A stretch of DNA of 64,000 nucleotides, taken from NCBI GenBank assembly GCA_900142905.1, contig FSRV01000002.1:4556947-4620946 (forward strand), given 5' to 3'. The translations under genes and the position numbers were made by a program. Below, piece after piece: positions 9,941-37,123 of the stretch; position 1 is the first letter of the stretch, and the number at the start of each line of letters is the position of its first letter. Source of the stretch: Burkholderia sp. GAS332. Its GTDB lineage: Bacteria > Pseudomonadota > Gammaproteobacteria > Burkholderiales > Burkholderiaceae. The notes below the pieces were generated by a model. That model had not been told where the DNA came from. It did not search any database and saw nothing but the letters and a program-made list of their open reading frames with translations.

Positions 9941-10444
9941 TCACGCCGCGCGGTAGCATGCCTCACTCGTGCTGGCGGGAATAAGCCGTTCGCGTTGCAT
10001 CGCGACCGCCTCGCCAAGCCGCTTGCAGAGCTGGTCCGCGTTCCGGATGCCTGGCAAACGCCGCACGGGATGCGCGGGGTCGTTGGTCGTCAGGATGATC
10101 GTGCCGGTGCCGAATAGATGCAGCCACCAAGGATGGATCGCGGTGATGTGTTGAATCCGGGAGAGATCGAGACTCGATGCACGGCGATTCAGAATACCTT
10201 GCGTCCAGGTAATGCGCGTGGTGTCGATGACGATTCGGGTGAACGCGGTTTTGACGAACGGCAAAGCGACACCGATCAGGACCGCGCAGGCTTGTGCCAG
10301 CAGCACGGGCCACTGAAGCGGGAAAGCGTTCAACGCGCAGACATGGATAGCGCCAATCATGACCATGACAACGCCGCCCTTCAGGAGCGCCGGAAGGTTG
10401 CAGGCCTGCGACGGCGCGCCGCTGAAAATCACCTGATTGACCAT
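9941..10444 (-). CDS. PH (bPH2-like) domain membrane protein
   Basis: A 167-residue protein with two hydrophobic stretches near the N-terminus (GGVVMVMIGAIHVCALNAF and the LAQACAVLIGVALPF segment). A bacterial pleckstrin-homology-like domain follows. ITWTQGILNRRASSLDLSRI is the typical strand pattern of YdbS/YdbT-type proteins, followed by GTGTIILTTND. The ATG at 10444 has a GAGGAG site; a longer reading from 10567 would run through a terminator hairpin and is rejected. The function of this family is poorly known. Membrane location is inferred from the hydrophobic segments. Confidence 0.75.
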   Translation of the reverse strand: MVNQVIFSGAPSQACNLPALLKGGVVMVMIGAIHVCALNAFPLQWPVLLAQACAVLIGVALPFVKTAFTRIVIDTTRITWTQGILNRRASSLDLSRIQHITAIHPWWLHLFGTGTIILTTNDPAHPVRRLPGIRNADQLCKRLGEAVAMQRERLIPASTSEACYRAA

Positions 10445-18167: not shown

Positions 18168-20099
18168 CTAGAACGTATAAGCCAGCTTGCCGAATGCCGT
18201 ACGGCCCAGCGTGTTGTAACCGTATGCTGTGGCGTACTGCCGGTTAAACAGGTTCGATAGATTGGCGGATACGGTGAGATGCGAATTGACCTTGTAGGCG
18301 GCACGCAGCGCCACCGTTGTATACGACGGCAGATAGATCGTGTTGGCCTGGTCGTCGAAGGTCGATCCGCCGTAAAGCAGCGAGACCCCGGTGCTGAGCG
18401 CGTGCAGGTGGAACTCGTCCCACGTGTGATCGACGCTCAGGCTGACCGTCTGGCGCGGGCGGCGGTTAAGCCACGTCTGGTCGGTGACGTCCTGCGGATT
18501 CAGAATGCCGATTGCCAGACTGACCGGCGTCGATTTGCCGATTGTGCCCTTGTACGAGAGATCGATACCCTGGATGTGCGCCCGCCCAATGTTCACGGGC
18601 AGAAAGGTCGCGGAGTTATAAGAGATGAGGTCATGGACGCGGGTGTCATAAACGGCAGCCGTGAAGGTGCCGAAAGACGTCGAGGCATCCAGCGCGGCCT
18701 CGATCGTGTCGCTGCGCTCGGGCAACAGGTTCGGGTTCGCGTAGCCCGGGTAGTACAGATCGTTGAAGGTCGGCAGGCGGAATGCATTGCCATACGAGAG
18801 CCGCGCCGTATAAACCGGCGTGATCGCATAGGCCACGGCCACATTGCCGGTATTGACCGTCTGGCCCTGAACAATCTCATGGCGGCCCGCAAGGAACACC
18901 GTCAGTGCGCCGAGCGTGGCTGACTGATGGAGCGAGACAGACGAATCGTTGCGCGCCGGCAAGCCTTGAGGGATATCGACCGGCAGGAACGCCAACTGAC
19001 GGCTAAAGTCGTAGGCGAGCTTCGTCTCTCCGGACAGCGGCAGATTGAACAGCGTCAGCCCGCGTTCCTGATGCGTCAGCGAGGTTGACGTGCTGAAGCG
19101 CGTGGAGTTGAACTCATCGGTCGGAATGGTCGGATCGTTCGAGTAGATGAACTGGCGGTCCGTGGCGTAGCCCACCGATTGGTCAAACTGCGTGGACGGC
19201 GTAATGTCCAGATGAAACGCGACGCCTGTCGTCAGCTGATAATCGGCTTGGCGGTCGTTGCCACCGGCATTGTCGTAAGACAGATCGGACCGGTGGTACA
19301 GGGCGAACGTGGAGAGCGACCAGTTGTCGTGCGCATAGCCGAGGCGGGCATCCACATCCTCAGCATGGTACGGATTGCGGCCGTCCTCGTGGCCATAGCC
19401 ATACGGCTGGGTCGCGTCGATCCCCGCGGTGTTGTAGTCGTGCAGACCGAGCGAGTAGGTCAGTCCCGACAGTGCCGAGAGCGGACCGGTGGACGGGATA
19501 CTGCCCGACGTGCGGATTTGCGTATCGAAGGTCTTGTTCGAGCCGCCGTCTACAGAGACCGTAGTCTTGTTCGGCTGATTGGCTGCATGGTTGGTGAACA
19601 ACTGCACGACGCCGCCCATCGCATCTGCACCGAACGACGCCGCCGCCGGCCCCGAGATGACCTCGACGCGGTCGAACGCCGAGGTCGGCAGATCCGCCCA
19701 CTCGGCTATGCCGGTGGTCGCGGAACCGACCCGGATACCGTCGATAAACACGGCGACTTGACTGGCTGATGAACCCCGGATACTGACCGAGGCGGCCGAG
19801 CCTGGACCGCCGGTTTGTGAAACGGTGACGCCGGGCAGCGTGGCAAGGGCCTGCGTGATACTCGGGTCGGCGGGCGACAGTCGATCGAGATCGGCGCGCG
19901 TCAGAACCTGCGTCGTGGCGAAACGTTGGTCGAACGATTGCGGCAGGTGTTGCGTGTCGCCGGTGACGAGAATATTCGGCAGCGTGGATTCGGCCGGCGC
20001 CTGCTGTGGCGGCGGCAACGACGTGTCGTCCGCGGCCTGCGCACCCTGCCACGCCGAGACGGTCAGGGCAGAGGTGATGATGAATTGACGAAGCTTCAT
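18168..20099 (-). CDS. btuB: TonB-dependent receptor, BtuB-like (cobalamin uptake)
   Basis: A 643-residue outer-membrane beta-barrel receptor. A signal peptide (MKLRQFIITSALTVSAWQGA, cut near AQA) is followed by a TonB-box-like LPNILVTGD and a plug domain with VSIRGSSASQVAVFIDGIRVG and VEVISGPAAASFGADAMGG. It ends in the aromatic residue expected of an outer-membrane barrel (KLAYTF). The length matches BtuB (about 600-650). It starts 63 bp after the NiCoT gene, which is read from a cobalamin riboswitch, so vitamin B12 or another corrinoid is the likely ligand. The ATG at 20099 is preferred; 20 upstream residues lack signal-peptide character. Confidence 0.82.
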   Translation of the reverse strand: MKLRQFIITSALTVSAWQGAQAADDTSLPPPQQAPAESTLPNILVTGDTQHLPQSFDQRFATTQVLTRADLDRLSPADPSITQALATLPGVTVSQTGGPGSAASVSIRGSSASQVAVFIDGIRVGSATTGIAEWADLPTSAFDRVEVISGPAAASFGADAMGGVVQLFTNHAANQPNKTTVSVDGGSNKTFDTQIRTSGSIPSTGPLSALSGLTYSLGLHDYNTAGIDATQPYGYGHEDGRNPYHAEDVDARLGYAHDNWSLSTFALYHRSDLSYDNAGGNDRQADYQLTTGVAFHLDITPSTQFDQSVGYATDRQFIYSNDPTIPTDEFNSTRFSTSTSLTHQERGLTLFNLPLSGETKLAYDFSRQLAFLPVDIPQGLPARNDSSVSLHQSATLGALTVFLAGRHEIVQGQTVNTGNVAVAYAITPVYTARLSYGNAFRLPTFNDLYYPGYANPNLLPERSDTIEAALDASTSFGTFTAAVYDTRVHDLISYNSATFLPVNIGRAHIQGIDLSYKGTIGKSTPVSLAIGILNPQDVTDQTWLNRRPRQTVSLSVDHTWDEFHLHALSTGVSLLYGGSTFDDQANTIYLPSYTTVALRAAYKVNSHLTVSANLSNLFNRQYATAYGYNTLGRTAFGKLAYTF

Positions 20100-20162
20100 G
20101 ATGGGGTGTTCGTTCTTGTCGATGCTTGTAAATAGAGGGCCGCCTGGCGGCGGCCACAAGGC

Positions 20163-21221
20163 TTAACGTTTGGCGGACCAGGTTTCCAGCTCGTCATAAC
20201 GCTTCATGCGATAGATGACGAACGAGGCCAGCCAGGCGACGATGAACACGCCAATAATGATGAAGCCGAGGTTGTTGAAGTTATCGTTGAGCGTGCCGAT
20301 GGCGTCCCAGAACACCCCTTTGAGGCTGAGCTGGTCAGCGAGCAGCCCTAGCGCTTCAATGCCGCCGATCAGCACGGCCACGACCACCGATACCAGCGTG
20401 ATCGTCAGGTTGTAGTAGAGCTTGCGGATGGGGCGCACGAAGGCCCAGTCATAGGCGCCCAGCATGAGCACGCCATCGGTCGTATCGACCAGCGACATGC
20501 CCGCCGCGAACAGCACCGGGAACACCAGCACGATCCAGATAGACAGCCCCTGCGCGGCCTGGCTGGCGGAGATGCCGAGCAGGCTGACTTCCGTGGCGGT
20601 ATCGAATCCGAGGCCGAACAGGAAACCGAGCGGCAGCATCCAGATCGGATTCGACACGAGACGGAACATCGGGCGGAACAGCCGCGCGAGCAATCCGCGG
20701 TTGTTCAACAGCAGGTCGAGGTCTTCATTGTCGTAAGGCTCACCGCGCCGTACCTTATTGAAGGCGCGCCATACGCCCCGCAGGATGATGATGTTCATCG
20801 CGGCGATGAGGAACAGGAAGAGGGCGGAGACGCTGGTCGACACAATCCCGCCCAGGTCTTTCCATGCCTCGAAGCGGCCCTCCAGCGCGGCGGCCGTCGC
20901 GGCCACGGCGGCGGCGACCAGCAAAACGACCGCGGAGTGGCCGATCGCGAAGAAAAAGCCGATCGTGACAGGACGTTGACCGTCCTGCATCAGTTTGCGC
21001 GTGACGTTGTCGATCGCGGCGATATGGTCGGCGTCGACCGCGTGGCGCAGACCGAAGCCATAGGCCAGCAAGCCGGTGCCGAGCAACAGAGGATGGCCGT
21101 GAAAAGCGATGAACGCCCAGATCCAGGCGCCAATATTGAAGACGGCGAGAACGCTATAAATGGCGATGACGCGTCGGCGCAAGGTTCCCTGCGGGGAACC
21201 GGTTTGAACAGCAGTGGACAT
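20163..21221 (-). CDS. HoxN/HupN/NixA-family (NiCoT) transporter, probably cobalt
   Basis: A 352-residue inner-membrane NiCoT transporter with about eight hydrophobic segments. Signature motifs are present: GLRHAVDADHIAAIDN (the HX4DH metal motif in helix 2), GLGFDTATEVSLL and GMSLVDTTDGVLMLGAY. The family imports Ni2+ or Co2+. Because the leader contains a cobalamin riboswitch and the next gene encodes a BtuB-like receptor, Co2+ supply for B12 synthesis is the likeliest role. The ATG at 21221 has AGGAT upstream; reading further upstream would enter the riboswitch. Confidence 0.88.
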   Translation of the reverse strand: MSTAVQTGSPQGTLRRRVIAIYSVLAVFNIGAWIWAFIAFHGHPLLLGTGLLAYGFGLRHAVDADHIAAIDNVTRKLMQDGQRPVTIGFFFAIGHSAVVLLVAAAVAATAAALEGRFEAWKDLGGIVSTSVSALFLFLIAAMNIIILRGVWRAFNKVRRGEPYDNEDLDLLLNNRGLLARLFRPMFRLVSNPIWMLPLGFLFGLGFDTATEVSLLGISASQAAQGLSIWIVLVFPVLFAAGMSLVDTTDGVLMLGAYDWAFVRPIRKLYYNLTITLVSVVVAVLIGGIEALGLLADQLSLKGVFWDAIGTLNDNFNNLGFIIIGVFIVAWLASFVIYRMKRYDELETWSAKR

Positions 21222-21321
21222 GACAGATCCTGAGGTTTGGGCTGTCGTTGCAACGAGCGACCGCATAGGCGGTGCTTGCACATCGGGACACCCCGCCCCG
21301 GTGTGGCTGCGCAGACCTCGG

Positions 21322-21505
21322 TTTGATGGCAGGTCTCCTGGCTCGCGGGTCAACGTCACGTGCCGACCTTCCCGGTGTTCCAGTGGTCATGAGTGGCACG
21401 GACTCGCCGCTTACAGTTGCGGGGGCAGCCGCAGACTCGGAGCATCGCTGCTCGTACTGCGTTCCCTTTTGATCCCGGTGACGGGAACCATCAGCGCGAA
21501 GCGTA
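21322..21505 (-). promoter_or_regulatory. cobalamin riboswitch
   Basis: On the minus strand the leader contains the hallmark B12-aptamer blocks in order: AAAAGGGAAC, CCCCGCAACTGTAAGCGG, CCACTGG, CGGGAAGG and finally the B12 box AGCCAGGAGACCTGCC (complement of 21328-21343). It lies about 100 nt before the NiCoT start codon. Adenosylcobalamin binding should repress the transporter and, if cotranscribed, the BtuB-like gene. The region after the B12 box has a GC-rich ACACC/GGGTGT pairing near 21300 that could serve as the expression platform. The 5' limit is approximate. Confidence 0.95.
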
Positions 21506-21623
21506 CCGATGCGTAGTGGCTGCCGTCAACCACCACGGCGCTTACGGTGCGCTGCTCATCATTATTGTTACTGGTTTGTTGTTTCTGTCACCTAAGGCAT
21601 TGATAGGGCAATACTGAATGCTT

Positions 21624-21666
21624 TCAGTGAGCTTGTGGCGCAACGTTTTCGCGGCCTGAACCCTAT
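21624..21666 (-). pseudogene. remnant of a metE 3' end
   Basis: Minus-strand translation gives [13 protein letters not shown], nearly the C-terminus of the MetE encoded at 30594-32876 ([13 protein letters not shown]). The DNA matches 30610-30652 at 37 of 43 positions in the same orientation, and most differences fall at third codon positions. Nothing upstream of it resembles metE. It lies between the PAAR gene and the cobalamin riboswitch, and probably marks the far edge of the inserted VgrG/Rhs island. Confidence 0.75.
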
Positions 21667-21734
21667 GAAGGTTTCGCGCGACGCGTAAAGGTCCGATCGT
21701 TCGTACAGGCGTTCACGACCGCGTCCTGTGCGAA

Positions 21735-21998
21735 TCAATGGTCGCTGATGGTGACGTGATCGCCTAGCGCAATCAGCTTACAACCGCAGGCCGCGCTGTG
21801 CCCGTACATCGCGACGCGCCTGCCGTTGTCCATAATCATGTCCGACCCTTCGATGATCGGATTGGCACCATGTGTCGGGCACGATACCAGATCGCCGACG
21901 CGGGCAACCTGGCGCCCGAGGACGTCCATGGTGTCGGAGCCGGTGATGATGAAACCGCCGTGTGTCGTGCTGTCGCCCACGCAGGCAATTGAAGACAT
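21735..21998 (-). CDS. PAAR-domain protein (type VI secretion spike tip)
   Basis: An 87-residue PAAR protein that would sharpen the tip of a VgrG trimer. GDSTTHGGFIITGSDTMDVLGRQVARVGDLVSCPTHG and SAACGCKLIALGD contain the His and Cys residues expected at the zinc site. The ATG at 21998 follows a GGAG site. It is last in the minus-strand island after vgrG, rhs and the immunity candidate. The Rhs protein shows no PAAR domain of its own, so this is the likely partner. Confidence 0.88.
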   Translation of the reverse strand: MSSIACVGDSTTHGGFIITGSDTMDVLGRQVARVGDLVSCPTHGANPIIEGSDMIMDNGRRVAMYGHSAACGCKLIALGDHVTISDH

Positions 21999-22041
21999 GG
22001 AAAACTCCTATGATTCAGGATCAAGTTTTTGGCGCGATACT

Positions 22042-22248
22042 GTGAACGAGAAGGGCCGTTCTGAGCGTGGACTTATAGATAAACTTTTTACTTTGCCGAG
22101 GATCCCCTCGCACGGGCAGCCGCATTTCCCATGGATGCAAATCGCCGACCACCGGCTTGCCACCGCCGGCTTCAAACCAGGTGAGCGCGTCAGCTTCGGC
22201 ATCGATTACCGTTACGCCCAGTTGATCATCAGGCCAGACCTCGGATGA
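22042..22248 (+). CDS. SymE-like small protein
   Basis: A 68-codon frame on the strand opposite the rest of the island. Its second half, PWMQIADHRLATAGFKPGERVSFGID followed by a short strand, resembles the AbrB-like fold of SymE proteins (pattern PWLRLxGxWLxxAGFxxGxxVxVxV). SymE members occur near Rhs loci in other proteobacteria. The GTG at 22042 is a guess: an ATG at 21997 would overlap the PAAR start, and neither has a good ribosome site. It may be a decayed or tightly repressed toxin. Confidence 0.5.
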   Translation: MNEKGRSERGLIDKLFTLPRIPSHGQPHFPWMQIADHRLATAGFKPGERVSFGIDYRYAQLIIRPDLG

Positions 22249-22259
22249 CAGAATGAACA

Positions 22260-22281
22260 AAGGGCCGCATTCGCGGCCCTT
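22260..22281. terminator. bidirectional terminator
   Basis: A perfect 9-bp stem AAGGGCCGC / GCGGCCCTT with an ATTC loop in the 36-bp gap between the SymE-like gene (plus) and the immunity candidate (minus). The A run on one side and the T on the other suit termination both ways. Confidence 0.8.
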
Positions 22282-22284
22282 CCA

Positions 22285-22614
22285 CTAGTCGATGCCCTTG
22301 ATACGTAACGCCTCTTCGAGTGTTACTTCGTCATCTTGGTCGCCATCCTCGAAACATCGGACAGATCGGCCATCCAGCGCCTCTTGTAGCAAACGATATA
22401 GATCGGGCGATCTAAAATTAACCTCCAGCCATAGCGACTTTTCATCTTCTTTCGTCAACCGGATATCGTAATCCGACAAGGCTTTAAGATCCCGATCCTT
22501 CAAGCAGACTTCACGTCCTTGCGCCTTGACACAGGCAGCACTTGCCTTCAATACATCCATGACCTGTTGCGCTGAAGATGTATCAACAAACACTAGTCTA
22601 TATTCGTAGCTCAT
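22285..22614 (-). CDS. candidate immunity protein for the Rhs toxin
   Basis: A 109-residue acidic, soluble protein (starts MSYEYRLVFVDTSSAQQ) with no family I recognise. Its ATG overlaps the rhs stop codon (ATGA at 22611-22614), the arrangement expected of a toxin/immunity pair. The local base composition is visibly more AT-rich than the surrounding genes, as is the end of rhs; this is common in exchanged toxin tips. The high Asp/Glu content at the C-terminus (EDGDQDDEVTLEEAL) would suit binding to a basic nuclease. Immunity function is inferred from position alone. Confidence 0.7.
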   Translation of the reverse strand: MSYEYRLVFVDTSSAQQVMDVLKASAACVKAQGREVCLKDRDLKALSDYDIRLTKEDEKSLWLEVNFRSPDLYRLLQEALDGRSVRCFEDGDQDDEVTLEEALRIKGID

Positions 22615-25600
22615 GATCCGTGTGGCCTTCCTCGAACAGCTGGTAAATCGGCAGGATTTCGAATGCCAATATGCGTTTCATTCGGATCCAGCGACACTGC
22701 ACCACGATCGTTAAGCTGATTCCCAACAGGATCTTCTTTGTGAACGTGCGCGTTATTGCCAGATTTGTACGGGCATGGGCACTTGTTCCCGTATTTGTGA
22801 ACCCTGACTTCAGAACCGTCCGCATGCTTCCATGTCTGGTTCGCACCGTTGTCTTTCGTTTTAGAAAAACCGGCATCATCCAATACTGATCCAACGCCCG
22901 AGACACTCTGGCCTTTCACGCGAGGCAAGTCTGAGGCCGCCGACAGACCCAGAGGATCAATCCAGCCCGTGGGGTTGTCGGCGTAAGCGTATGGGTTGAT
23001 GCCACCGGCAAGGCCAATGGGGTCTTTCGATATGAACCGCCCCGTGTTGGGATCATAGTACCGATGCCGGTTATAGTGCAGCCCCGTCGCTTCATCATGA
23101 TACTGCCCCTGAAAACGCAGCGCGTTAGCGGCCTCTGCCGGGTCCGGTTTCTCCTTCCAGGTGTTTTTCCAGCCACCCCACGCCTTGTACCGCGCGAGCC
23201 ACACGACTGTGCCCGATTCGTCCACCAGTTCCTGCGGTGTGCCCAAATGATCATTCTGGTAGAACAGCGTGGCATGGCGCGTCGTCGCCGGCATCTGCAC
23301 GAAACGCCCATCGGTCCCGGTTGCCAAATGCGCGGGTTCAACCATCGTTTCGTCAAGTCGCGCGAGCGGCACGAACGAACCCGGCTCATGCAGATAGATC
23401 GATGCGGCCTGCCATTGATGCTCCTCATACAGCGTGTGCATGCGCTGCGCGACGGGCAACGAATGCGGGTCGTTCGGGTCATCGCGCACCAGATGGGAGG
23501 AGCGATAGCGGTACGGACGGAAGTCGCCTGCTCGTCGCGGCGGCTCGTGGAAACGTTCCTCCATCAGCAGCACGTCGCCGTCCCACGTGAATATCGTGCG
23601 ATCGATTCCGCCACCGGCTTGTTCGACTTCCTTCAATGTGCGCCGCCCGAACACGTCATAGCGGAAGCGCACCACCCGTTCCGCGCGTACGGTGCCGTTA
23701 AGGTAACGAACACCGCCATTCGCAAGAGGTTCTGTGCGGTCCAGTTCATTTGCGTCCGGCGTTTTCGTGTAACGGCTAGCTTCCTTAAGCCGGTTGGCGG
23801 CGTCGTAGCAGTACAGCCACGTCCGCCCGTCGAGTTCAATCCGCCGTATCAGGTTGCCGCGCTCGTCGTAGTCATAACGGACACGGTTCAGTTCGGCGAG
23901 TACGTTACCGATGCACTTTGGTAGTGACCGCCTCCACTCGTATAGCTTCGTCGCGTCCTCGGAACCACGCTTGTTGTGGCGCAGCGGCGGGTATTTCTCG
24001 TCTGGATGCGCGCGTAGCCAGGCGGCATCTTCCGCCGCATTGCGTGCAAACCGTTCCGCCTTTTCCTGCGGCGTCTCCACGACCGGCGGCGGTGTCATCT
24101 TCTCCGGGTCCACCGGATTGCCTGCGGGGTCAAACGCGAAGATTTCCGTCAGGTCCGGGGTGACGGCCTTCAGCAGCCGCCCCACCGGATCATAGGTGTA
24201 GTTGGTCACGCCGCGCGTGCGGTCCTCGATGCGCGTCAGGTGTCCCGCTGCGCCATACTGCAAACGGCGTTCCGCGATCCGCTCGTGCGGGCTTGCCGCG
24301 CTCGCGGGCCTCACCACGAACCGCGCCAGCCGCCCGGCAGGATCGTATTCGCGCCGTTGGCTGAATGCCGTATGCGTGCGCCCGGTTTCGCGGTGCAGCC
24401 TGTCCCGCTCGAAGTCGATCAGAGGCTGGCCGTCGACCAGTAGCCCATGCACATGCCCCGAGCCGTAACGGAGCCAGTCGATGGTGCATGTATTTGGCAG
24501 GATGGTTCTTGTGCGGTTGCCCAGCGCGTCGTATTCGTGACGCGTGACTGTCACGTATTCGGCTTCCGTGGCGGGATTCTGGTGCTGTTCTTCAGCGATC
24601 AGGTTGCCCGCGTCGTCGTAGTGCAGTTGTACCCGGCTGGATTCGGTCTGCGCGGTCACGAGCCGCCCGCGTGCGTCGTAGTAGAAACGTTCGCTATGGG
24701 TTCCTGTTCCAGGTGCGCGTATGTGGCGTTTCGTGAGCCGCCCAAGCGCGTCGCGCACGAATTCGGTTTCCACGTCCCCCTCGCGAGAACCGCTAAGTCG
24801 TCCAGCCTCATCGTAGGAGTAACTGGTCGTGCAGCCGTCGAAATCCTTCTGTTCGATCAACTGACCGAGCACGTTGTAACGGAATTCCGTGTCCTCGTCG
24901 CCTTCGTTGCGCAACCGTTCGAGACGCCATTGCGAATCATAGAAATAGGAAATGTACCGGCCTGCCGCGTCCTTGCGCCATGTCGGTTGGCGGCGCATGT
25001 TGAAGCTGTATTCGGTAAGTTGCCCAGCGCCGTCGCGGTAGGACTTCAGGTTGCCTTCGTCGTCCCAGGTGAACTGTTCCTCGACGCCGTCTGCGTGCGT
25101 GACCTGCACGAGCTGGCCGCGCGCGTCGTGCCTGTACGCCGTGATATTGCCTTCGGCATCGGTGCGCCGCGCCAGATGGCCGCGCTCGTCGTAGCCGTAG
25201 GCAGTGGCATACCCGGAACAGTCGACGGCTTCCGTAAGTCGACCCGTGTTGTCATACTGGAAGCGCTTCACGCCGCCTTTCGGATCCGTGAGCGACAGTA
25301 AGCGGCCCGCACTGTTCCAGACGTATTGCGTCGTCCGTCCTACCGCATCCGTCACCGTCGCGGGCCGCCCGAGCGTGTCATACGAGGTCCGCGTGACATC
25401 GCCGGTAGCTGCCGTGACCGTGACCGGCAACCCTTGCGTACTGTATTCCGTGCGCGTCGTATTGCCGAGCGCGTCAGTGATCGCGATCGCGCGCCCGTTC
25501 GCGTCGTATTCGAAGCGCTGCATCTGCCCCAGCGCATCGCGGGTGCCAATGAGGTTATTGTTTTCATCCCAGTCGAAACGCTCACTGGTGCCGTCGCCAT

Positions 25601-27470
25601 GCTCGACCAGCACGATGCGGTTATGGGCGTCGTAGCGGTGGAACGTGGCATTGCCGGCGGCGTCTGTGACTTTCGTGTACCAGTGTTCGCGGTGATACTC
25701 GAAGCGTGTATCCTCGCAAACTTCGCGCTCATCGTTGCCCACCCAGGTGCGCACGCATTTCGCGTCAGCCGGGGGAAGCAGGCCCGACCGCTTGCCCGGC
25801 CAGTCCCATTCGAGATTCGCGGCGCGTCCATTGAAATCGGTGTAGCGCACCAGCAGATGATGCTGGTACGCAAACTGGCGTTTGTGGCCCAGTATGTCCT
25901 GATGTTCGATCAGGTCGCCTTCGGGGCTGTACCTGTACGACGCGAGCGTTTCCGTGCGACGGCTCCCGGAGCTGACGCGATGGATCGCGGCGATCCGCCC
26001 GCCCGTGTAGTCAAGACGGATCGTGTTTTCCGCACGGTCGCTGACCGTGACCAGTTCGCCCTTGTCGTTATAGCTGAAGGTTAGCCCCAGCCCGTCGCGT
26101 CCGGTGCGCGCCGTCAGGCGGAAGCGTTCCCGCGTCGAAGTGCTGTGCCGTTCATAGTCCTCGCGCGAGCCGTCCAGATATGCGAGCTGCACGCTCCACG
26201 CGTCGAGGCGGCTGACGCTCAGTTGCTCGGTCGGTACTTCAACGGATTCGCCCACTTCGACGGGCGGCAGCGGCACGGCACGGTTATCGGTATCGAAGAA
26301 TACGAGCGCGCCTCCCTTCATTTCCAGCGATAGGTGATACGGGCTGCTCCAGCGAGCGCCCAGCGGGCTCTCGTCGTAGGCCGCGAGGCTTGAGCGGTAA
26401 CGGCGCGTCCAGACAATAGGCACCACTCCATCGAGCGCGAAATCGGTCTGTTCCAGGTTCTCGTCGCCCATCGCGTAGTTCACGGGCTTGGCGCTGGTCG
26501 TACTCGGGCAGCCACATCCTGTCTTCGCTGGCAGGTCGCTGGGTTTTGCGCCTAGCTGCGTCGTGTCGCGATGTTCGCCGGGTTTCGTGTGAGGCTCTTT
26601 CATCGTGCCCGGTGCAGCCTGTGCGACGTGCGATGGCTTGTGAGCACGCCGCGCCCTGATTTCTTCCACGATCTGCACGGCCATGAATATCAGCGTGCCC
26701 GCTGTGGCGGCATCGCCGAAGGCCTTGTCGAGCATCGGCCCGGTATCGCGGTCGAACTCGTCAAGCCACGCTAGGATTGCGTCGCGCTTGCCCGATACTT
26801 TCAGCAGTTCGTCAATACCGTGTAGGGCGATTTCCTCGCCCGTTGGCACCCAGGACAGGAACCCGGTGTTCTTCTTTACGGCGCCCATCTGTTCGGCAGC
26901 TGAAACCGGGTTCTGCACAAAGCGGCGCACGGTGCGCGATGCATCGCGTACGCCTTTCACGATGTCCTCTTTAAACCCCTTCAGCTTTTCATCGAGCGTC
27001 GACATGAATTCGATCACGTCTCCGCCAGCGGTCGCCCAGAACAGGTCAACCAGCACGCCGACAGCAGCGCCCTTCGCAAACGCGAGCAGCACCTCCTTGA
27101 CCACCGCGCGCGCCGGACGGCTCGCATTGCCCGCAGCAGGCACGACTCCGATTGCATCGACCGCGAGAATGCCCCAGTTGAACAGGTTCTTTGCCGCTCC
27201 CGTCACGCTGCATATGCGGTAAATGTCGGTGCCCACGTCGTACAGCGACATGACATTGCCGACCACGGGCAGCATATACAGGCACTGGACAAAAATTCCG
27301 TGACTGTGGTTCGACACTGAGTCAACGCCGGCCTGCACGAGATTGGGTGTCGTGGCAGGTGCCGGAAAGGGGCTGGTAATGACGCGCCGGGCCACTGCGT
27401 TGTTCCTGATTTCCTGCGGAATCTGGCGGACAAGTGTGTTCGGTGAGTTCGGGGTATTCGCGCTGGACAT
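22611..27470 (-). CDS. Rhs-family polymorphic toxin (T6SS cargo)
   Basis: About 1619 residues. The N-terminal 300 contain two hydrophobic regions (MLPVVGNVMSLYDVG and FAKGAAVGVLVDLFW), likely for delivery. A DUF6531-like region begins near GCGCPSTTSAKPVNYAMGDE. A long array of YD/Rhs repeats (for example YDERGHLARRTDAEGN) builds the cocoon. The conserved core ends with DPIGLAGGINPYAYADN and DPLGL, the self-cleavage region. The last 110 residues (22611-22943) are the variable tip: NNAHVHKEDP, THIGIRNPADLP and RGRPHGS suggest a His-based nuclease, perhaps polymorphic toxin type 24, from memory only. The ATG at 27470 is chosen; a TTG at 27503 has a GGAG nearby and is possible. Confidence 0.9.
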   Translation of the reverse strand: MSSANTPNSPNTLVRQIPQEIRNNAVARRVITSPFPAPATTPNLVQAGVDSVSNHSHGIFVQCLYMLPVVGNVMSLYDVGTDIYRICSVTGAAKNLFNWGILAVDAIGVVPAAGNASRPARAVVKEVLLAFAKGAAVGVLVDLFWATAGGDVIEFMSTLDEKLKGFKEDIVKGVRDASRTVRRFVQNPVSAAEQMGAVKKNTGFLSWVPTGEEIALHGIDELLKVSGKRDAILAWLDEFDRDTGPMLDKAFGDAATAGTLIFMAVQIVEEIRARRAHKPSHVAQAAPGTMKEPHTKPGEHRDTTQLGAKPSDLPAKTGCGCPSTTSAKPVNYAMGDENLEQTDFALDGVVPIVWTRRYRSSLAAYDESPLGARWSSPYHLSLEMKGGALVFFDTDNRAVPLPPVEVGESVEVPTEQLSVSRLDAWSVQLAYLDGSREDYERHSTSTRERFRLTARTGRDGLGLTFSYNDKGELVTVSDRAENTIRLDYTGGRIAAIHRVSSGSRRTETLASYRYSPEGDLIEHQDILGHKRQFAYQHHLLVRYTDFNGRAANLEWDWPGKRSGLLPPADAKCVRTWVGNDEREVCEDTRFEYHREHWYTKVTDAAGNATFHRYDAHNRIVLVEHGDGTSERFDWDENNNLIGTRDALGQMQRFEYDANGRAIAITDALGNTTRTEYSTQGLPVTVTAATGDVTRTSYDTLGRPATVTDAVGRTTQYVWNSAGRLLSLTDPKGGVKRFQYDNTGRLTEAVDCSGYATAYGYDERGHLARRTDAEGNITAYRHDARGQLVQVTHADGVEEQFTWDDEGNLKSYRDGAGQLTEYSFNMRRQPTWRKDAAGRYISYFYDSQWRLERLRNEGDEDTEFRYNVLGQLIEQKDFDGCTTSYSYDEAGRLSGSREGDVETEFVRDALGRLTKRHIRAPGTGTHSERFYYDARGRLVTAQTESSRVQLHYDDAGNLIAEEQHQNPATEAEYVTVTRHEYDALGNRTRTILPNTCTIDWLRYGSGHVHGLLVDGQPLIDFERDRLHRETGRTHTAFSQRREYDPAGRLARFVVRPASAASPHERIAERRLQYGAAGHLTRIEDRTRGVTNYTYDPVGRLLKAVTPDLTEIFAFDPAGNPVDPEKMTPPPVVETPQEKAERFARNAAEDAAWLRAHPDEKYPPLRHNKRGSEDATKLYEWRRSLPKCIGNVLAELNRVRYDYDERGNLIRRIELDGRTWLYCYDAANRLKEASRYTKTPDANELDRTEPLANGGVRYLNGTVRAERVVRFRYDVFGRRTLKEVEQAGGGIDRTIFTWDGDVLLMEERFHEPPRRAGDFRPYRYRSSHLVRDDPNDPHSLPVAQRMHTLYEEHQWQAASIYLHEPGSFVPLARLDETMVEPAHLATGTDGRFVQMPATTRHATLFYQNDHLGTPQELVDESGTVVWLARYKAWGGWKNTWKEKPDPAEAANALRFQGQYHDEATGLHYNRHRYYDPNTGRFISKDPIGLAGGINPYAYADNPTGWIDPLGLSAASDLPRVKGQSVSGVGSVLDDAGFSKTKDNGANQTWKHADGSEVRVHKYGNKCPCPYKSGNNAHVHKEDPVGNQLNDRGAVSLDPNETHIGIRNPADLPAVRGRPHGS

Positions 27471-27509
27471 GTTCTGGCGGGTGATCCGGTGAATAGGGGG
27501 CAACGCTCC

Positions 27510-27530
27510 GTTAGCCGTTAGCCGTTAGCC
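27510..27530. repeat. three tandem GTTAGCC repeats
   Basis: GTTAGCC occurs three times in a row, followed by the degenerate GTCAGC that overlaps the vgrG stop codon. It occupies the short gap between vgrG and rhs. It may be slippage-derived; no function is evident. Confidence 0.7.
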
Positions 27531-27531
27531 G

Positions 27532-30306
27532 TCAGCTGATGGCGGGTGGCTTCAGCAGGCCCTGCGCGAGCGCAGGAACGCCAGAGGCGGCTGGCGCGGC
27601 ACGGCTGGTCGCAGACATCGCCTGACTGGTGAGCGCGCCCACCACAGCCTTTTCGAGCGCGGCAATGCCACCTGTAGCGGCCTGGCCGGCCACGCTGGCA
27701 ACCGTGGAGGCAATGGTGCTGACAGACGCAACTTCAGCCATCGCCAGGCTCGGCAGGACACTGCCAGCAGCGCTGCCGGAGCCAGCGACCTGCGGCGTAC
27801 CCTTGGGGTCCAACCACCTGCGCGCCTGATCCTCCAGGTCGTGCGCTTCCTCGAAGTATTCGACCGTGCCGCCGCCGCGTGGCGCATTGGACAGCGTGCC
27901 GCGACCGTTGGCATCCAGCGTGCCGTTGCGCCAGCTGCCGTCGGGAAACGTCACCTTGTATTTCGCGTTCGGCACCGGCTGGCCGTTCGGGTACGCATGC
28001 CACAACTGCATGCCGGTCGCCTCCTGTGCGGGCATCAGCGGCAGCGCCTCGCGTAGCGTGCCGGACGGCCCGATACGCAGTGGACCTTTCAGCGTGATAT
28101 CGCCCGCGCTGCCAATCTCCACCTGGCCGCCGGACAGCTTGATATAGGCGCCACCACACATCAGCGTGAGAGACTTGTCCGCGTTCAGCGTGATTGAATC
28201 GCCAGCGCTCGCGATCGTGACGCCCTTCAGGGCCGACAATGACAGCGCATCCCCCTGCGCCTGCACATCCACCTTGCCCGCCGCGGCATAAATTTTCATG
28301 CCCCGCGTGTTCGCGAACAGCGACACTGCATTACCCGCCGCCACCGTATAGTTGCCGCCGATAGCCGCATCGGCATTGCCGCCCGTTGTCGTGAAGAAGT
28401 GCCCACCTGCCGAGAGTTGCAGGTGTTCGCCGCTGGTGACCGCCACACCGTGCGGCGCGGAGGCGAGCAGCACGGCCTGCTGCAAGTCCTTGAGTTGTGT
28501 TTCGAGCAGCGTCTTTTGTGCTTCGCACGCAGCGACCACCGCCTGAGCCTTGCTGACCGCTTCAGAGAGGCTCTGCATGCGCGCTTGCGCGGCCTGCAAC
28601 TGTGCCAGCGCGACGCTCATGTCGAGCGCCTGGCCGTTGGCCGCGGGCTGCGCGTCGGCGCTGAAGAACAGACCCTTGCCCGCGCGCAGCACGCCCCATT
28701 GGCCCGTGCGCAGTTCGAATCCCTCGCCACGCCGCTGCCGTTGCGAATCGACCAGGTGACCCATGTTGAGCTGGGTCTTGTCGCCGTAGTCGGTCGACAG
28801 CTTGATGCCTTCCTTGCCCTGCTTGTCTTCCAGGCGCAGCTTGTTGCGCCGCGTACGGATCATGTTGCGGGTGTTCCAGCCGGTCTGGCCCGTCACGAGA
28901 TCGACGGCCTGGCTATGGTGTTGCACGAACGCTATGAACGGACAATTTGGGTTTCCGTTCATGAATGCCACGCTGACTTCGGTATCCTTCAGCAGCGGAA
29001 AGTGAAAGCCCGTCTGGTTCGCGCCGGCAAATGGTTTCGCGAGCCGCAGCGGCACTGACTCGCCGCCTTCCGGCCATTCGTCATAGTCGAAATCGAATCG
29101 CACTGAGTAGTGACCAGCTAGCGTCAGGTGCGCCTCTGCGTCGTTGTTCGGTGACGTGACGCGTGCCGAAAGCGTCCCGGCGATTTTTGGCCAGTTGTCT
29201 TCCTCGAGCTTCAGGCGGAACGGACGCCCGGAAGGGATCGAACGGAACGAGTTGATATAGGATTGGTTGCGCGCGGCTTGATGCACGACTTCAATGATGA
29301 CCTGGCCGTGCGGCGCGTCCGGTAGCGGTTCGTCCATCTTCAGCACGAGGCCAGGACACAGGTCATGGACGGTGCTCCTGCCGTCGTAGACGATCTGCCA
29401 CGCCACCGCAGCCTCGTGTCGCAGGCGTGCTTCCCATGCAGCTTCCTGGGCATTCAGGTGGTGCGTACCAAATACGTACGTCTGCCCCCAGGTGGTTTTG
29501 TCGTCACGCGCGACATTGGCCTCAGCCTCGAAACGTTCCCATGCATTGTCCGGGTTGTAGTCCGCCACGCGCACCGATTCGGGAATGGTCTCGCTATGCG
29601 TCTGCAACGCGATCACGGCTTCGTGACCCGACTCAAGGCCCGAGGTCTCGCGATAGGGGATGATCACGTCAGGCCGGTATGTATAGCCATCCACATCATC
29701 AGCGAAATGCACCTCGTCGCCGATCTTGCCTAGGCGGATAAAGCAGAAAAGGCCTGTCTGACGCATCAGCAGGTCAATATAGTCCCAGTCCGACATCTGG
29801 AATTGCATACGGAATGCGAGCTTGGGAAACGCGCGCCGCAGCTTGAAACTGAACTGGTGCGTGCTGAAGTCGTGACGACGCAGGATAGCCGCGATGATGT
29901 CGGGCACCGACTTATTCTGGTAGATGCGCGTGGCGCGCGTGAGGCGCAGGCGGGCAATATGCGCCTCAACCACGATCCGGTATGCGCAGAAGTCACGCGT
30001 CCTGCGCGTACGGGTCACCTGAGTGATGCAGCCGTTGAAGATCCGGGCTTCGCCGCCGTCGGGCGGCGGATCGATGGTGAATATCGCGTCGCGGCCCAGA
30101 TAGTCGGCACGATTCAGGTCGACGTTGGCTGTCAGCTCCAGCGCGATCCTGTAGGGTTCGCCCAGCCGTTCAACCGCTTCAACCGAGATGATTGACAGGC
30201 CATCGGTCGACGGTGCCTGCCTGACTTCCAGGTGATAATGCTGATGTCCGGTGATCCATCGCGCCGCTGCGCCTCGGGCTTGTCCCTTGCTGACTACATC
30301 CGCCAT
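27532..30306 (-). CDS. vgrG: VgrG (type VI secretion spike) with C-terminal extension
   Basis: A 924-residue VgrG. The N-terminal gp27-like part begins YHLEVRQAPSTDGLSIISVEAVERLGEPYRI. A gp5/OB part includes GNPNCPFIAFVQHHSQAVD, and the DUF2345 needle with GVAVTSGEHLQLSAGG and DITLKGPLRI follows. After about residue 770 an Ig- or transthyretin-like domain (GMQLWHAYPNGQPVPNAKYKV) precedes an Ala-rich hydrophobic tail. The extension likely docks the downstream Rhs cargo. The ATG has a GGAGG site. No Tap (DUF4123) or Eag adaptor and no T6SS structural genes are seen nearby, so this is an orphan cluster. Confidence 0.95.
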   Translation of the reverse strand: MADVVSKGQARGAAARWITGHQHYHLEVRQAPSTDGLSIISVEAVERLGEPYRIALELTANVDLNRADYLGRDAIFTIDPPPDGGEARIFNGCITQVTRTRRTRDFCAYRIVVEAHIARLRLTRATRIYQNKSVPDIIAAILRRHDFSTHQFSFKLRRAFPKLAFRMQFQMSDWDYIDLLMRQTGLFCFIRLGKIGDEVHFADDVDGYTYRPDVIIPYRETSGLESGHEAVIALQTHSETIPESVRVADYNPDNAWERFEAEANVARDDKTTWGQTYVFGTHHLNAQEAAWEARLRHEAAVAWQIVYDGRSTVHDLCPGLVLKMDEPLPDAPHGQVIIEVVHQAARNQSYINSFRSIPSGRPFRLKLEEDNWPKIAGTLSARVTSPNNDAEAHLTLAGHYSVRFDFDYDEWPEGGESVPLRLAKPFAGANQTGFHFPLLKDTEVSVAFMNGNPNCPFIAFVQHHSQAVDLVTGQTGWNTRNMIRTRRNKLRLEDKQGKEGIKLSTDYGDKTQLNMGHLVDSQRQRRGEGFELRTGQWGVLRAGKGLFFSADAQPAANGQALDMSVALAQLQAAQARMQSLSEAVSKAQAVVAACEAQKTLLETQLKDLQQAVLLASAPHGVAVTSGEHLQLSAGGHFFTTTGGNADAAIGGNYTVAAGNAVSLFANTRGMKIYAAAGKVDVQAQGDALSLSALKGVTIASAGDSITLNADKSLTLMCGGAYIKLSGGQVEIGSAGDITLKGPLRIGPSGTLREALPLMPAQEATGMQLWHAYPNGQPVPNAKYKVTFPDGSWRNGTLDANGRGTLSNAPRGGGTVEYFEEAHDLEDQARRWLDPKGTPQVAGSGSAAGSVLPSLAMAEVASVSTIASTVASVAGQAATGGIAALEKAVVGALTSQAMSATSRAAPAASGVPALAQGLLKPPAIS

Positions 30307-30375
30307 TCGCTCGCCTCCGTCCGTGTAGAGTGCATGAGATCTTGCGCGCTGACTGTCGGACGAAATCGAGAAAAA

Positions 30376-30397
30376 ATCTATAGGATATCTATAGGAT
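30376..30397. repeat. tandem 11-bp repeat in the vgrG upstream region
   Basis: ATCTATAGGAT occurs twice with no gap, in an AT-rich patch about 70 bp before vgrG in otherwise GC-rich DNA. On the minus strand it supplies TATAGAT-like hexamers that could be a -10 element or a regulator site for the island. Confidence 0.55.
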
Positions 30398-30593
30398 TTT
30401 CGAAAACCCTTGTCGAATCACGGGAGAGCAATTGCATGAAACGTTACAGATGGTGACGGGTCGTTGTAACCCCGCCGTTCCTTGAGAGCGTTGCCGACAA
30501 GGCGATGCATGGCGCGCATCAAGGCGACCAGCGGATCACCTGATGTCGGCCTACGGTAGTGGCGAAGCGTTGGAACGCCCGCGCGGCGGTTGC

Positions 30594-32876
30594 CTAGACG
30601 GTGCAGTTGTCAGTAAGCTTCCGACGCAACGTCTTCGCGGCCTGAACCATATTGCTCAGCGCGGCTTCTGTCTCGGGCCAGCCGCGTGTCTTCAAGCCGC
30701 AGTCTGGATTGACCCAAAGCCGTTCAGCCGGCACCACTTCGCAGGCACGTTCAAGCAACTGCTGCATCGCATCGGCGCTCGGTACGCGCGGCGAATGGGT
30801 GTCATACACGCCCGGTCCGATACCGTTCGGATAGGCGAACTCGACAAAACCGTCGAGCAGTTCCATCGAAGAGCGCGAGGTTTCGATCGTGATGACGTCC
30901 GCGTCCAGATCGGCGATCGCCGGCAGAATGTCGTTGAACTCGGAATAGCACATATGCGTATGAATCTGCGTCGCGTCGGACACACCGCCCGCAGCAATCC
31001 TGAACGCGCGCGTCGCCCATTCCAGATACGCCGGCCAGTCTTCCTGGCGTAATGGCAAGCCTTCGCGGAAGGCAGGTTCGTCAACCTGGATGATCCGGAT
31101 GCCGGCTTTTTCAAGGTCGATCACCTCGTCGCGAATCACGAGCGCCAACTGCAGCGCCGTGGTCGAGCGGGGCTGGTCATCGCGAACAAATGACCATTCG
31201 AGCATCGTCACCGGTCCAGTCAACACCCCTTTCACCAGGCGTTCCGTCAGAGACTGCGCGTGGCAGGCGGCGTCCACCATCATGGGTTCAGGCCGATAGA
31301 CGTCACCGTAGATGATCGGCGGTTTGACGCACTGTGAGCCGTAGTTCTGGACCCAGCCGTTTTCCGTGAACGCGAAGCCCCAGAGCTTATCGGCAAAGAA
31401 TTCGACCATGTCGTTGCGCTCCACTTCACCATGCACGAGCACATCGAGTCCGAGTTCCTCCTGCTTGCGAATCACGCTTGCCGTTTCGGCGCGCATCCGT
31501 TCGAGGTAATCGAGCGCTCGCATCTCGCCCCGCTTGTACGCCGCGCGAGCTTGCCGGATGGCGGGTGTTTGCGGAAACGAGCCGATCGTCGTGGTCGGTA
31601 ACAGCGGGAGTTTCAGTGAGTGCCGCTGCACACGGCTGCGGACCGTGAAGGGGCTCTTGCGGCTCGCCATCGCATCGGTGATGCTCGCCACTTTTCTTTG
31701 AACGAGGACGTTGATGACGGCGCCTGAGGCACGCCGCGCGTCGAGTGCGGCATCCGCCGCAGCGAGCGCCGGCTCAGCGGCAACCGGGTCGCGGAGCGCG
31801 AGCGCGATCGTGCTGAGCTCATCGAGTTTCTCGGTCGCAAAGGCGAGCCATGACTTAAGCTCGGCGCCGAGTCTCGTTTCGGAGGCTAGCGTGACGGGCA
31901 CGTGAAGGAGCGAGCATGACGGTGCGATCCAGAGGCGCTCACCGCGTTCCGCGTGCAGCGTATCAAGCGAGCCGACAATGTCGCTCAGATCCGCGCGCCA
32001 GATGTTGCGGCCGTCGATCACACCCGCCGATAGCACCTTGTCGGCGGGCAGCGCGGTTCGCCATGCGTCGAGTTGTTGCGGGGCCCTGATCAGATCGATG
32101 TGGACACCGTGTACGGGAAGTTTCGATACCCGCGGCGCGTGATCGGCCGCCGTGTCGAAATAGGTCCCCAGCAAAACCTTGACGCCCGAGACGCCCAACA
32201 CGTCGTACGCTGCCGAGAATGCCTCGAGCCATTCCCCGTTGAGGTCGAGGCACAAGGCCGGCTCGTCGAGTTGAACCCATTCGATGCCGCGTTGTTTGAG
32301 TGTGTCGAGAATGCGCATATAGCGGATCACCAGCTTCGGCAACAGCGACAGACGGTCGAAGCCGGGAACAGGACTCTTGGACAGCCACAAATAGGTGATC
32401 GGCCCGATCAACACCGGCTTGACCGGCAGATCCAACGCGAGGGCCTCGTCGATTTCGTCAAAGAACCAGTCGACGCCGCCATTGAAGCTCGTATCGGGTC
32501 CCAGTTCCGGCACCAGGTAGTGGTAGTTGGTGTCGAACCACTTGGTCATTTCCATGGCCGGCTCGGCTTTGTTGCCCCGCGCGAGCTCGTAGTACTGCGT
32601 CAGCGAAAGCCGCGCCGGCTCGAATCCGAACCGCTCCGGCAGCGAGCCAAGCAGCGCGCTCAGGTTGAGCATCTGATCGTAGTAAGCGAAGTCGCCGACG
32701 GCGACGAAATCCAGCTTCGCCGCACGTTGCAATTCCCAGTGCCGGATGCGCAGTTCTTTCGCGATGCCCTTGAGATAGGCATCGTCGGACTCTCCGCGCC
32801 AGAACGATTCCTGTGCGAACTTCAGTTCGCGTTGCGCGCCGATGCGCGGAAAACCAGAGATGTGAGTGCGGGCCAT
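30594..32876 (-). CDS. metE: cobalamin-independent methionine synthase, copy 1
   Basis: A 760-residue MetE, which transfers a methyl group from 5-methyltetrahydropteroyl-triglutamate to homocysteine. The N-terminal barrel starts [15 protein letters not shown]. The C-terminal barrel keeps the zinc ligands: His and Cys in [12 protein letters not shown], Glu in ITIETSRS and Cys in [10 protein letters not shown]. Full length and intact motifs argue for activity. The ATG at 32876 has AAGGA upstream. It diverges from a MetR gene. Its 3' end abuts the VgrG/Rhs island and is partly duplicated at 21624-21666. It differs clearly from copy 2, so this is an old paralogue, not a recent duplication. Confidence 0.95.
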
Positions 32877-32953
32877 GGACAATCCTTGCTTGAATAGCCC
32901 GCAGTGTGAGAGTCACGCTATGATTCAACAAGCGACATGTTTTCATTACCGTA

Positions 32954-34831: not shown

Positions 34832-37123
34832 TTAGGCAGAGGCGCGCAGCGTCTTGGCAGCCGCCACCATGTTGGTCAGTGCCGGAATGACTTCTTCCCA
34901 CTGACGCGTCTTCAAGCCACAGTCCGGGTTCACCCACAGGCGTTGCGCCGGAATGCGTTCAGCCGCCTTCTTCATCAACTGAACGATGTGCGCTTCGGTC
35001 GGGATGTTCGGCGAGTGAATGTCGTACACACCCGGGCCGATCTCGTTCGGATAGTTGAAGTTGTCGAACGCGTCCAGCAACTCCATATCCGAGCGCGAGG
35101 TCTCGATGGTGATCACGTCGGCGTCCATGTCGGCGATCGACGCGATGATGTCGTTGAACTCCGAATAGCACATATGCGTGTGGATCTGCGTTTCGTCATC
35201 CACGCCATTGGCGGTGATACGGAACGACGTCACCGCCCAGTCCAGGTATTCCTGCCATTGCGCCTTGCGCAGCGGCAGACCTTCGCGCAAGGCGGCTTCG
35301 TCGATCTGAATGACGCGCACGCCGGCCTTCTCGAGGTCTAGGACTTCTTCGCGGATCGCCAGTGCCAGCTGATAGCACGACACCGAACGCGGTTGGTCGT
35401 CGCGCACGAAGGACCAGTTCAGAATCGTCACCGGGCCGGTCAACATGCCCTTCATCGGCTTGTTGGTGAGCGATTGGGCGTACTTGATCCATTCGACGGT
35501 CATTGCCTTCGGGCGGCTGATGTCGCCGAACAGGATAGGCGGCTTCACGCAACGCGAGCCATACGACTGCACCCAGCCGAACTGGCTGAAGGCGTAGCCA
35601 TCGAGCTGTTCGCCGAAGTATTCCACCATGTCGTTACGCTCGGCTTCACCGTGCACCAGCACGTCCAGCCCCAGCGCTTCCTGCTCGCGCACGCTGCGTT
35701 CGATCTCGGCCTGCATCGCGGTCTTGTAGCCGGCTTCGTCCAACGCACCGCTCTTGAACTGGCTGCGCGCATGGCGGATCTCGCCGGTCTGCGGGAACGA
35801 GCCGATGGTCGTGGTCGGGTACGCCGGCAGCTTCAACAGTGCAGCCTGCTTGTCGGCGCGCGCCGGGTAGGCGTTCTTGCGTTGACTCAGGGCCGGGCTG
35901 ATCTTCGCGAGGGCAGCCTTGACCGCCGGGTTGTTCACACGCGGCGAAGCGCGGCGTGCGGCAATAGCGGCACCGTTAGCGGCCAGCTCTGACTTGACGG
36001 CGTCGCGGCCTTGGTTCAAAGCGCTCGCCAGCACCTTCAGTTCGCCCAGCTTTTGCAGTGCGAAGGCGAGCCACGAGCGGACTTCCGCATCCAGCTTCTG
36101 TTCGCTTTCCAAGTCCACCGGCACATGCAGTAGCGAGCACGACGGTGCGATCCAGAGGCGCTCGCCCAGTTGCTTCGCGACCGGCTCGAGCCAGTCCAGC
36201 ACGCCGTTGAGGTCCGTCTTCCAGATGTTGCGGCCGTTGATCACGCCGAGTGACAGCACGCGGTCCTGCGGCAATTGCGCAATCACCGCAGCGACGTCAG
36301 CGCGGGCATTGATCGCATCCAGATGCAGGCCTTGCACCGGCAGCTTGCAAGCCAGCGACAGGTTGTCGAGCAGCCGGCCGAAGTACGTCGCCAGCAGCAG
36401 CTTGACCTTGCTGTTCGCCAGCGCGTCGTACGCGGTGACGGTCGCTTGCTGCCATTCAGCGGACAGTTCGGTAACGAGGATCGGCTCGTCGATCTGCACC
36501 CATTCAACGCCTTGCGCTGCCAGCGTGGCCAGCAGTTCAGCGTAGACCGGCAGCAGGCGCGGCAGCAGAGCCAGCTTGTCGCCGTCGTCCTTGGCCTTGC
36601 CCAGCGCCAGGTAGGTCACGGGGCCGACGACCACCGGCTTGGCCTTGACGCCTTGTGCCTTAGCCTCAGCCAGTTGTTCCAGCAGGCGCGACGGGTCGAG
36701 TTTGAACTCGGTGCTCGCGCTGAATTCGGGGACGATGTAGTGATAGTTGGTGTCGAACCACTTGGTCATCTCGCCGGCTGCGACGCCGCCGCAGCATGCG
36801 CTATGGTCCTCGGCACCCTTAGCCGTTCGGCCGCGGGCGACGCGGAAATAGTTGTCGAGCGTATCGCCGTGGAAGCCCTGCACGCGTTCCGGCAAGTTAC
36901 CCAGGGTGAAGCTCATGTCCAGCACCTGGTCGTAGAAGGCGAAATCGCCCACGGCAGCCAGACCCAGATCAGCCTGGTGTGTCCAGTGACGCTGGCGCAA
37001 CTGGGCGCCCAACGCTTTCAGTTCGCCGAGCGAGGACTCGCCTTTCCAGTAGGACTCAAGTGCGAATTTCAGTTCGCGCTTCGCGCCGATGCGGGGGAAG
37101 CCCAGATTGTGTGTCGTTGCCAT
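34832..37123 (-). CDS. metE: cobalamin-independent methionine synthase, copy 2
   Basis: A 763-residue MetE with all zinc ligands present ([30 protein letters not shown]). It begins [25 protein letters not shown] loop with [17 protein letters not shown] carries a Cys pair that copy 1 lacks. It is divergent from its own MetR gene and convergent with cobF, 79 bp away. The sequence reads as the better conserved, probably housekeeping, copy. Two full MetE genes in one short region are unusual. Confidence 0.95.

Follow-up and report, generated by a model that had tools for sequence, protein, structure and literature searches.

We analysed a 64,000-nucleotide (nt) stretch of the Burkholderia sp. GAS332 genome (GenBank assembly GCA_900142905.1, contig FSRV01000002.1, positions 4,556,947 to 4,620,946 of the forward strand), hereafter the window, in which a cassette of type VI secretion system (T6SS) genes lies between the cobalamin-independent methionine synthase gene metE1 and a cobalamin riboswitch. 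The cassette encodes VgrG, Rhs and PAAR proteins, and it is bracketed by two copies of a 43-nt sequence from the metE1 3′ end. Coordinates are those of the window unless a locus is named; G and L numbers denote genomes and loci of a comparison set containing one genome per species.

Genes of the cassette

The VgrG, Rhs and PAAR genes occur together on the reverse strand, all as open reading frames (ORFs) with Pfam and NCBIfam matches. VgrG (27532..30306; 924 aa) matches PF05954, PF13296, PF10106 and TIGR03361, and the Rhs effector (22611..27503; 1630 aa), which has a variable C-terminal tip, matches PF05593, PF03527, PF20148 and TIGR03696. The 87-aa PAAR protein, a spike tip (21735..21998), has 94% aa identity to its counterpart in G178 and matches PF05488 above the Pfam cut-off (E = 6.2e-25); its NCBIfam PAAR match of 34.6 bits is below the cut-off of 124.

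After the Rhs tip, and on the same strand, a 109-aa ORF (22285..22614) is likely the immunity gene for that tip, based on its position, its G+C content (0.476) and a homologue in G189. The tip and the small gene have lower G+C (0.52 and 0.48, respectively, versus 0.62 in the window), and neither matches a Pfam family. Within G189, a homologue of the tip (88% aa identity) is directly followed by a homologue of the small gene (73% aa identity). That locus (L250, 9866-11797) also holds several further Rhs-tip starts near the pair, resembling an orphan-tip array. Exchangeable tips and orphan tips are features of Rhs elements. The variable tip of lower G+C, the small downstream gene and the presence of the pair in G189 all resemble known Rhs elements, with nothing unusual about them; exchangeable and orphan Rhs tips are also mentioned in excerpts of a study of Vibrio cholerae (PMC5361080).

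An additional ORF (21826..22248) lies on the forward strand, opposite to the cassette. By eye, its translation has a SymE-like end, and it is probably a fragment; it had no Pfam match even at E 10. Approximately 160-170 nt of this ORF recur at 80-83% identity in G026 and G067.

Using Pfam and NCBIfam, we found no integrase or recombinase among the five insert ORFs tested, in line with an initial annotation made from the sequence alone, which had seen no integrase. That annotation listed PAAR, SymE, immunity, Rhs and VgrG genes; Pfam supports PAAR, Rhs and VgrG, and the immunity gene is likely, whereas SymE was recognized by eye only and an insertion sequence (IS) relic at 30425..30469 and 30511..30562 was missing from the list. 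Elsewhere in the genome there are three matches to TssC-type (VipB) proteins, the sole T6SS component checked, from which we infer that a host T6SS could deliver the Rhs effector. All 40 VgrG relatives in plasmid records were distant (60-80% identity), and a query spanning the metE-vgrG junction matched 31 records, none of which covered 80% of the query.

The 43-nt repeat

The metE1 gene (30594..32882, reverse strand; PF01717 and PF08267) is an open frame of 762 codons with new last codons, and its 3′ end contains positions 30610..30652. This 43-nt sequence is directly repeated at 21624..21666 (reverse strand), hereafter the remnant, where the in-frame translation is 13 residues long. The two copies are listed as 86% identical and agree at 37 of 43 positions without gaps. 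The runner-up match of the remnant within the window reached only 25 of 43, and the best non-self matches of 400 random 43-mers from the window ranged from 22 to 36, with none at 37 or above. Across the 10.4-Mb genome, a 175-nt query around the remnant matched two places, the second with E = 4.6e-7. Together, the comparison with random 43-mers and the whole-genome search rule out a chance origin of the match. The window contains a second metE (metE2; 34832..37123) with 56% protein identity to metE1; the remnant resembles the first copy.

Based on the repeat, the genome search and the similarity to metE1 of relatives, we identified the remnant as a displaced metE1 3′ end. It agrees at 38 of 43 positions with each of the tails in G046, G049, G019, G158 and G067 and with an isolated tail in G076, whereas the copy within metE1 agrees with G046 at 42 of 43. 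Four of the five differences between the remnant and G046 are at third codon positions. The remnant runs into a spacer of the G046 type, and one substitution (ATAGGG) is common to the remnant and G067. The initial annotation had likewise assigned the right-hand copy to the end of metE copy 1. It had further noted that most differences between the copies are at third codon positions, which holds (four of six, the others being at second positions); its conclusion that the remnant diverged as coding DNA goes beyond what five or six differences can decide.

Empty site and extent of the insert

We surveyed 146 relatives with the 175-nt query, scoring five candidates per genome. Six genomes matched, including that of the window, and the matches in all five others begin at window position 21666. 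The end of metE1 in G046 leads directly into the same spacer (21508..21623, reverse strand) and cobalamin riboswitch (21311..21507, reverse strand; RF00174, 122.6 bits), with 448 of 466 positions identical across the left junction, that is, over remnant, spacer and riboswitch. Homology blocks between the window and G046 stop at 21666 and resume at 30610, and bases 10086-10128 of the G046 locus (L038) align to both 43-nt copies. These breaks delimit an insert at 21667..30609, 8,943 bp absent from G046, accompanied by the 43-nt duplication.

The wider G046 locus retains btuB, the riboswitch, metE1, LysR, methylase, metE2 and LysR genes, with proteins 95-100% identical to those of the window. G076 provides a second empty site, in which metE1 is followed by the riboswitch and btuB. 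An island ancestral at this site was rejected because G046 and G076 lack it despite the conserved gene order. The comparison of relatives without the island had been proposed in the initial annotation, and its outcome agrees with the proposal that the island entered at the metE end, carrying or replacing the terminal codons, and split metE1 from the riboswitch unit. The metE1 product now ends in LTDNCTV, versus LTESIR, LAESIR or LAESTR in relatives and a longer end (LTESTQ..) in G046. A remnant away from any metE in a relative without the island, named beforehand as evidence to the contrary, does occur in G076 as a 58-nt metE1 tail, but not at the orthologous site. This tail is flanked by genes for a solute-binding protein and a trypsin-like peptidase, at a different locus that holds an intact or decayed metE operon in other genomes.

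Native order was counted in all 39 other metE1 loci with at least 70% identity among the matches listed. In 11 of the 39, no more than ~560 nt separate the btuB start from the metE1 stop, and a full cobalamin riboswitch (Rfam) separates the two genes in nine of these 11; between metE1 and btuB of G007 and G195, no riboswitch exceeded the Rfam threshold. Where metE1 loci lack btuB, the Rfam search covered G049 (none found) and G019 (a fragment). In G031, btuB is 4.7 kb from metE1, beyond genes of the periplasmic-binding-protein, GntR and allophanate-hydrolase types. VgrG, Rhs or PAAR genes were found downstream of metE1 in none of the 39 loci, three of which (G059, G198 and G076) offered at most 3.2 kb. 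Given the linkage to btuB in 11 loci and the lack of T6SS genes in all 39, we regard metE1-riboswitch-btuB as an old arrangement and the T6SS cassette as a rare intruder.

Insertion sequence relic between metE1 and vgrG

Two pieces of one IS remain between the metE1 tail and vgrG on the forward strand. Positions 30425..30469 are the relic of one end, with the inverted-repeat end on the vgrG side (91% identity over 46 nt to IS positions 5-50), and positions 30511..30562 are an inner fragment (IS positions 436-491; 75% identity over 56 nt, E = 2.2e-6). The repeat at 30425..30477 recurs elsewhere in the same genome and in six others (G178, G158, G067, G156, G151 and G029). The G158 copy is the end of a 1.2-kb element that has terminal inverted repeats and encodes a DDE transposase with a DDE_Tnp_1-associated N-terminal domain (matches to PF13808 and PF01609); the ends of this IS, which we take to be of the ISAs1 family, read GGCAATTGCATGAA, inverted. 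A role of the repeat as a vgrG promoter was rejected: nine of 11 loci with it are not beside vgrG, the G158 copy adjoins the transposase gene and can be aligned with the G151 copy over 1.25 kb, all of which identify the repeat as an IS end. The 135 nt beside metE1 matched the genome itself and four of 144 genomes, in short pieces.

A second cassette copy and a second metE locus

In a survey of 144 genus genomes with three candidates scored per genome, by which further copies could be missed, the vgrG start and its upstream DNA were found at high identity only in G178 besides the genome of the window (87% over 575 nt). The remaining 17 matching genomes had vgrG relatives at 67-71% or short pieces. 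The G178 and window cassettes share 91% nt identity in the 5′ part of vgrG and 91% at the PAAR end; however, the G178 cassette is degraded, with a VgrG match to residues 1-420 only and Rhs in three pieces. The 45 nt between the remnant and the cassette stretch homologous to G178 (21667..21711, reverse strand) had no counterpart in G178 or in the other loci compared.

Directly upstream of vgrG, G178 has a metE1 tail (47 nt, 87% identity) preceded by metE2-like fragments, and it keeps IS positions 8-82 in the same place and orientation as the relic in the window, which keeps 5-50 and 436-491. The neighbours of the G178 cassette, a solute-binding-protein gene and a 905-aa gene on one flank and OprB, Nramp and MFS genes on the other, differ from those in the window and mark another locus. 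Beyond PAAR, G178 aligns to the stretch that follows the metE1 tail in cassette-free G067; of the two flanks of the G178 cassette, only one is a metE tail. The IS relics occupy equivalent places in the two cassettes and have lost different internal parts, which points to a metE tail-IS-vgrG linkage in the common ancestor of both. This linkage is probably older than the insertion in the window, since in G178, too, and at another locus, the same relic lies between a metE1 tail and vgrG.

We compared this second metE locus, between MFS-side genes and a solute-binding gene, in L040, L041, L287, L159 and L039 against L284 and L285. It contains LysR-metE2-metE1 in G049 and G019, metE2 with 47 metE1 codons in G067, fragments in G178 and only the 58-nt metE1 tail in G076, whereas in G046 and the genome of the window both sides adjoin without metE. 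The same MFS and solute-binding genes are separated by ~10 kb of other DNA in G158 (L286). The G019 metE1 at this locus is followed by a riboswitch piece, which suggests that metE1 with its flank probably moved between loci before. This metE1 (L041, 7710-9982) is apparently frameshifted, with overlapping matches to residues 1-546 and 543-759, and lies next to a long metE2 match.

Origin of the cassette at metE1

The 3′ flank of metE1 (30577..30609, reverse strand) most closely resembles the G067 flank at the second metE locus, with 19 of 24 aligned nt identical. Among 42 flanks compared, eight of which (including that of G044) start ~10 codons inside metE because the protein alignment ended early, the G067 flank scored best and its score was reached by none of 300 shuffles; the next, G044, was reached by six of 300. 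The 2273 positions of metE1 from 30610 to 32882 include 93 differences from G046, of which 70 fall at third codon positions. Thus, homology is seen at one junction, with metE1 recipient-like up to 30610 and the G067-like flank beyond, and this switch is what a crossover at 30610 is expected to leave.

We consider it likely that an orphan T6SS cassette (VgrG, Rhs, likely immunity protein and PAAR) recombined into the metE1 3′ end via metE1 homology, which probably anchored the transfer; the direction of transfer and the anchoring mechanism are what we infer from the sequence comparisons above. The cassette would already have been linked to a metE1 3′ end across the ISAs1-like IS before it was transferred, an arrangement still present in decayed form in G178. 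A crossover near the last metE1 codons would have kept metE1 whole and given it a donor-type end and flank. The far end of the incoming DNA would have rejoined the recipient 43 nt further upstream, still within the metE1 tail, through illegitimate joining or via a second metE tail on the donor, leaving the original tail and native spacer beyond PAAR, still beside the riboswitch.

Several observations weigh against this account. Among the searched genomes, no intact metE1-IS-vgrG donor was found, and a metE search of G178 at E 1e-100 gave no match. Only two cassette copies are in the data, that of G178 being degraded, and its tail is less alike, matching the window metE1 copy at 35 and the remnant at 33 of 43 positions. 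The G067 flank match is short, at 19 identical of 24 aligned nt. Since the remnant is equally close to six relatives, a drifted tail of the recipient and a donor allele look the same in this comparison, and if the two tails derive from a single recipient gene, divergence at six of 43 positions would have to have arisen since the insertion.

The initial annotation had held homologous exchange at metE to be as likely as site-specific insertion. In the latter, the 43 nt would be an att core at the metE 3′ end, with the gene end restored and the integrase since lost. Many integrase elements have flanking repeats, one completing a gene end and the other displaced. The insert fits this pattern, being flanked by direct repeats of which one completes metE1 and the other is displaced, and its empty site is known; the excerpts available of work on Vibrio Aux3 describe a T6SS case with att repeats (PMC7721734). 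However, the repeats are just 86% identical, only one of the two flanks of the G178 cassette is a metE tail, none of the other 39 metE1 loci (three with at most 3.2 kb) has T6SS genes downstream, and the five insert ORFs tested include no recombinase. We therefore find site-specific integration quite unlikely and favour homologous exchange, based on the lack of a recombinase in these ORFs and on the G178 cassette behind a metE1 tail with the same IS relic at another locus. Capture by the ISAs1-like IS, which would have moved the cassette or made deletions bringing it against metE tails, appears even less probable: its relic lies between metE tail and vgrG in both copies, and related ends occur in six other genus genomes and elsewhere in the same genome, but there is one IS end only, on the vgrG side (the best PAAR-side match has E = 1.5 in the window and 0.11 in G178), and the repeat is metE sequence rather than an IS end.

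If the metE1 3′ end were a rearrangement hot spot, the cassette could have inserted behind it twice independently. Tails of metE1 do border varied sequences (the riboswitch, a peptidase gene, a stretch common to G067 and G178 and a riboswitch fragment); nevertheless, the IS relic common to both copies between tail and vgrG favours one linkage event, and we judge two insertions very unlikely. A tandem duplication of metE1, after which the cassette replaced the body of the second copy and left its tail, seems the least probable of these alternatives. Reduction of metE to tails is seen in relatives (47 codons in G067, fragments in G178 and 58 nt in G076), but the matches listed include no adjacent metE1 pair, the tandem pairs being metE2-metE1, and more steps are needed.

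Relation to other mobile T6SS modules

T6SS effector-immunity modules are exchanged by homology-facilitated illegitimate recombination in Vibrio cholerae (PMC5361080, PMC9711863) and Pseudomonas aeruginosa (PMC11751169), and excerpts of the first study describe illegitimate events as rare compared with ordinary homologous recombination (PMC5361080). As described in the available parts of these papers, such modules have homology at one end, non-homologous joining at the other and recipient sequence displaced downstream. The cassette in the window resembles them in the homology at one end and the displaced recipient sequence, and its far end may have been joined illegitimately or via a donor metE tail. 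The Vibrio and Pseudomonas anchors lie inside the T6SS module (the upstream region, a chaperone gene or the vgrG 3′ end), whereas here the anchor would be the metabolic gene metE1. Moreover, what appears to have moved is a whole orphan vgrG-to-PAAR cassette, and a gene tail was displaced, in contrast to the immunity gene displaced in those genera. The parts available of the work on Vibrio cholerae Aux3 show a further likeness, in that direct repeats flank the T6SS genes and relatives have an empty site (PMC7721734). However, Aux3 excises and is equipped with an integrase and att sites (PMC7721734), whereas here the insert ORFs tested yielded no recombinase and the repeats consist of gene-end sequence that has diverged.

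T6SS module exchange similar to this is thus published, and the unusual feature here is metE1 as the probable anchor. A literature search combining metE, VgrG and Burkholderia had no report of such an arrangement among the papers listed, judged by title or the start of the abstract, and one combining ISAs1, type VI secretion and Rhs returned no paper. The insertion is comparatively clean, with both breakpoints readable to the base against an empty site and no integrase found. It suggests that an ordinary metabolic gene can serve as the homology arm with which orphan vgrG-Rhs cassettes spread, and it offers a searchable signature for other islands of obscure origin, namely, tails of housekeeping genes beside vgrG. 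It is conceivable, albeit doubtful, that in Paraburkholderia the metE1 3′ end acts as a portable handle for recombination and shuttles linked cargo between species and between unrelated chromosomal loci. Under this equally tentative extension, the metE1 tail would duplicate and rebuild the metE end each time, and cargo would move to wherever a metE1 copy lies.

Neighbouring genes

Beyond the riboswitch, the window contains an ORF for a NiCoT-type nickel/cobalt transporter (20163..21359, reverse strand; PF03824) and a TonB-dependent receptor gene (18168..20159, reverse strand; PF00593 and PF07715) that we call btuB-like based on its riboswitch context. The NiCoT ORF is full length in the window and present as short pieces only in G046, G076 and G158 (L038, L051 and L215); the G046 piece has 86 residues at 71% identity. 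In all three of these genomes, the riboswitch still precedes btuB.

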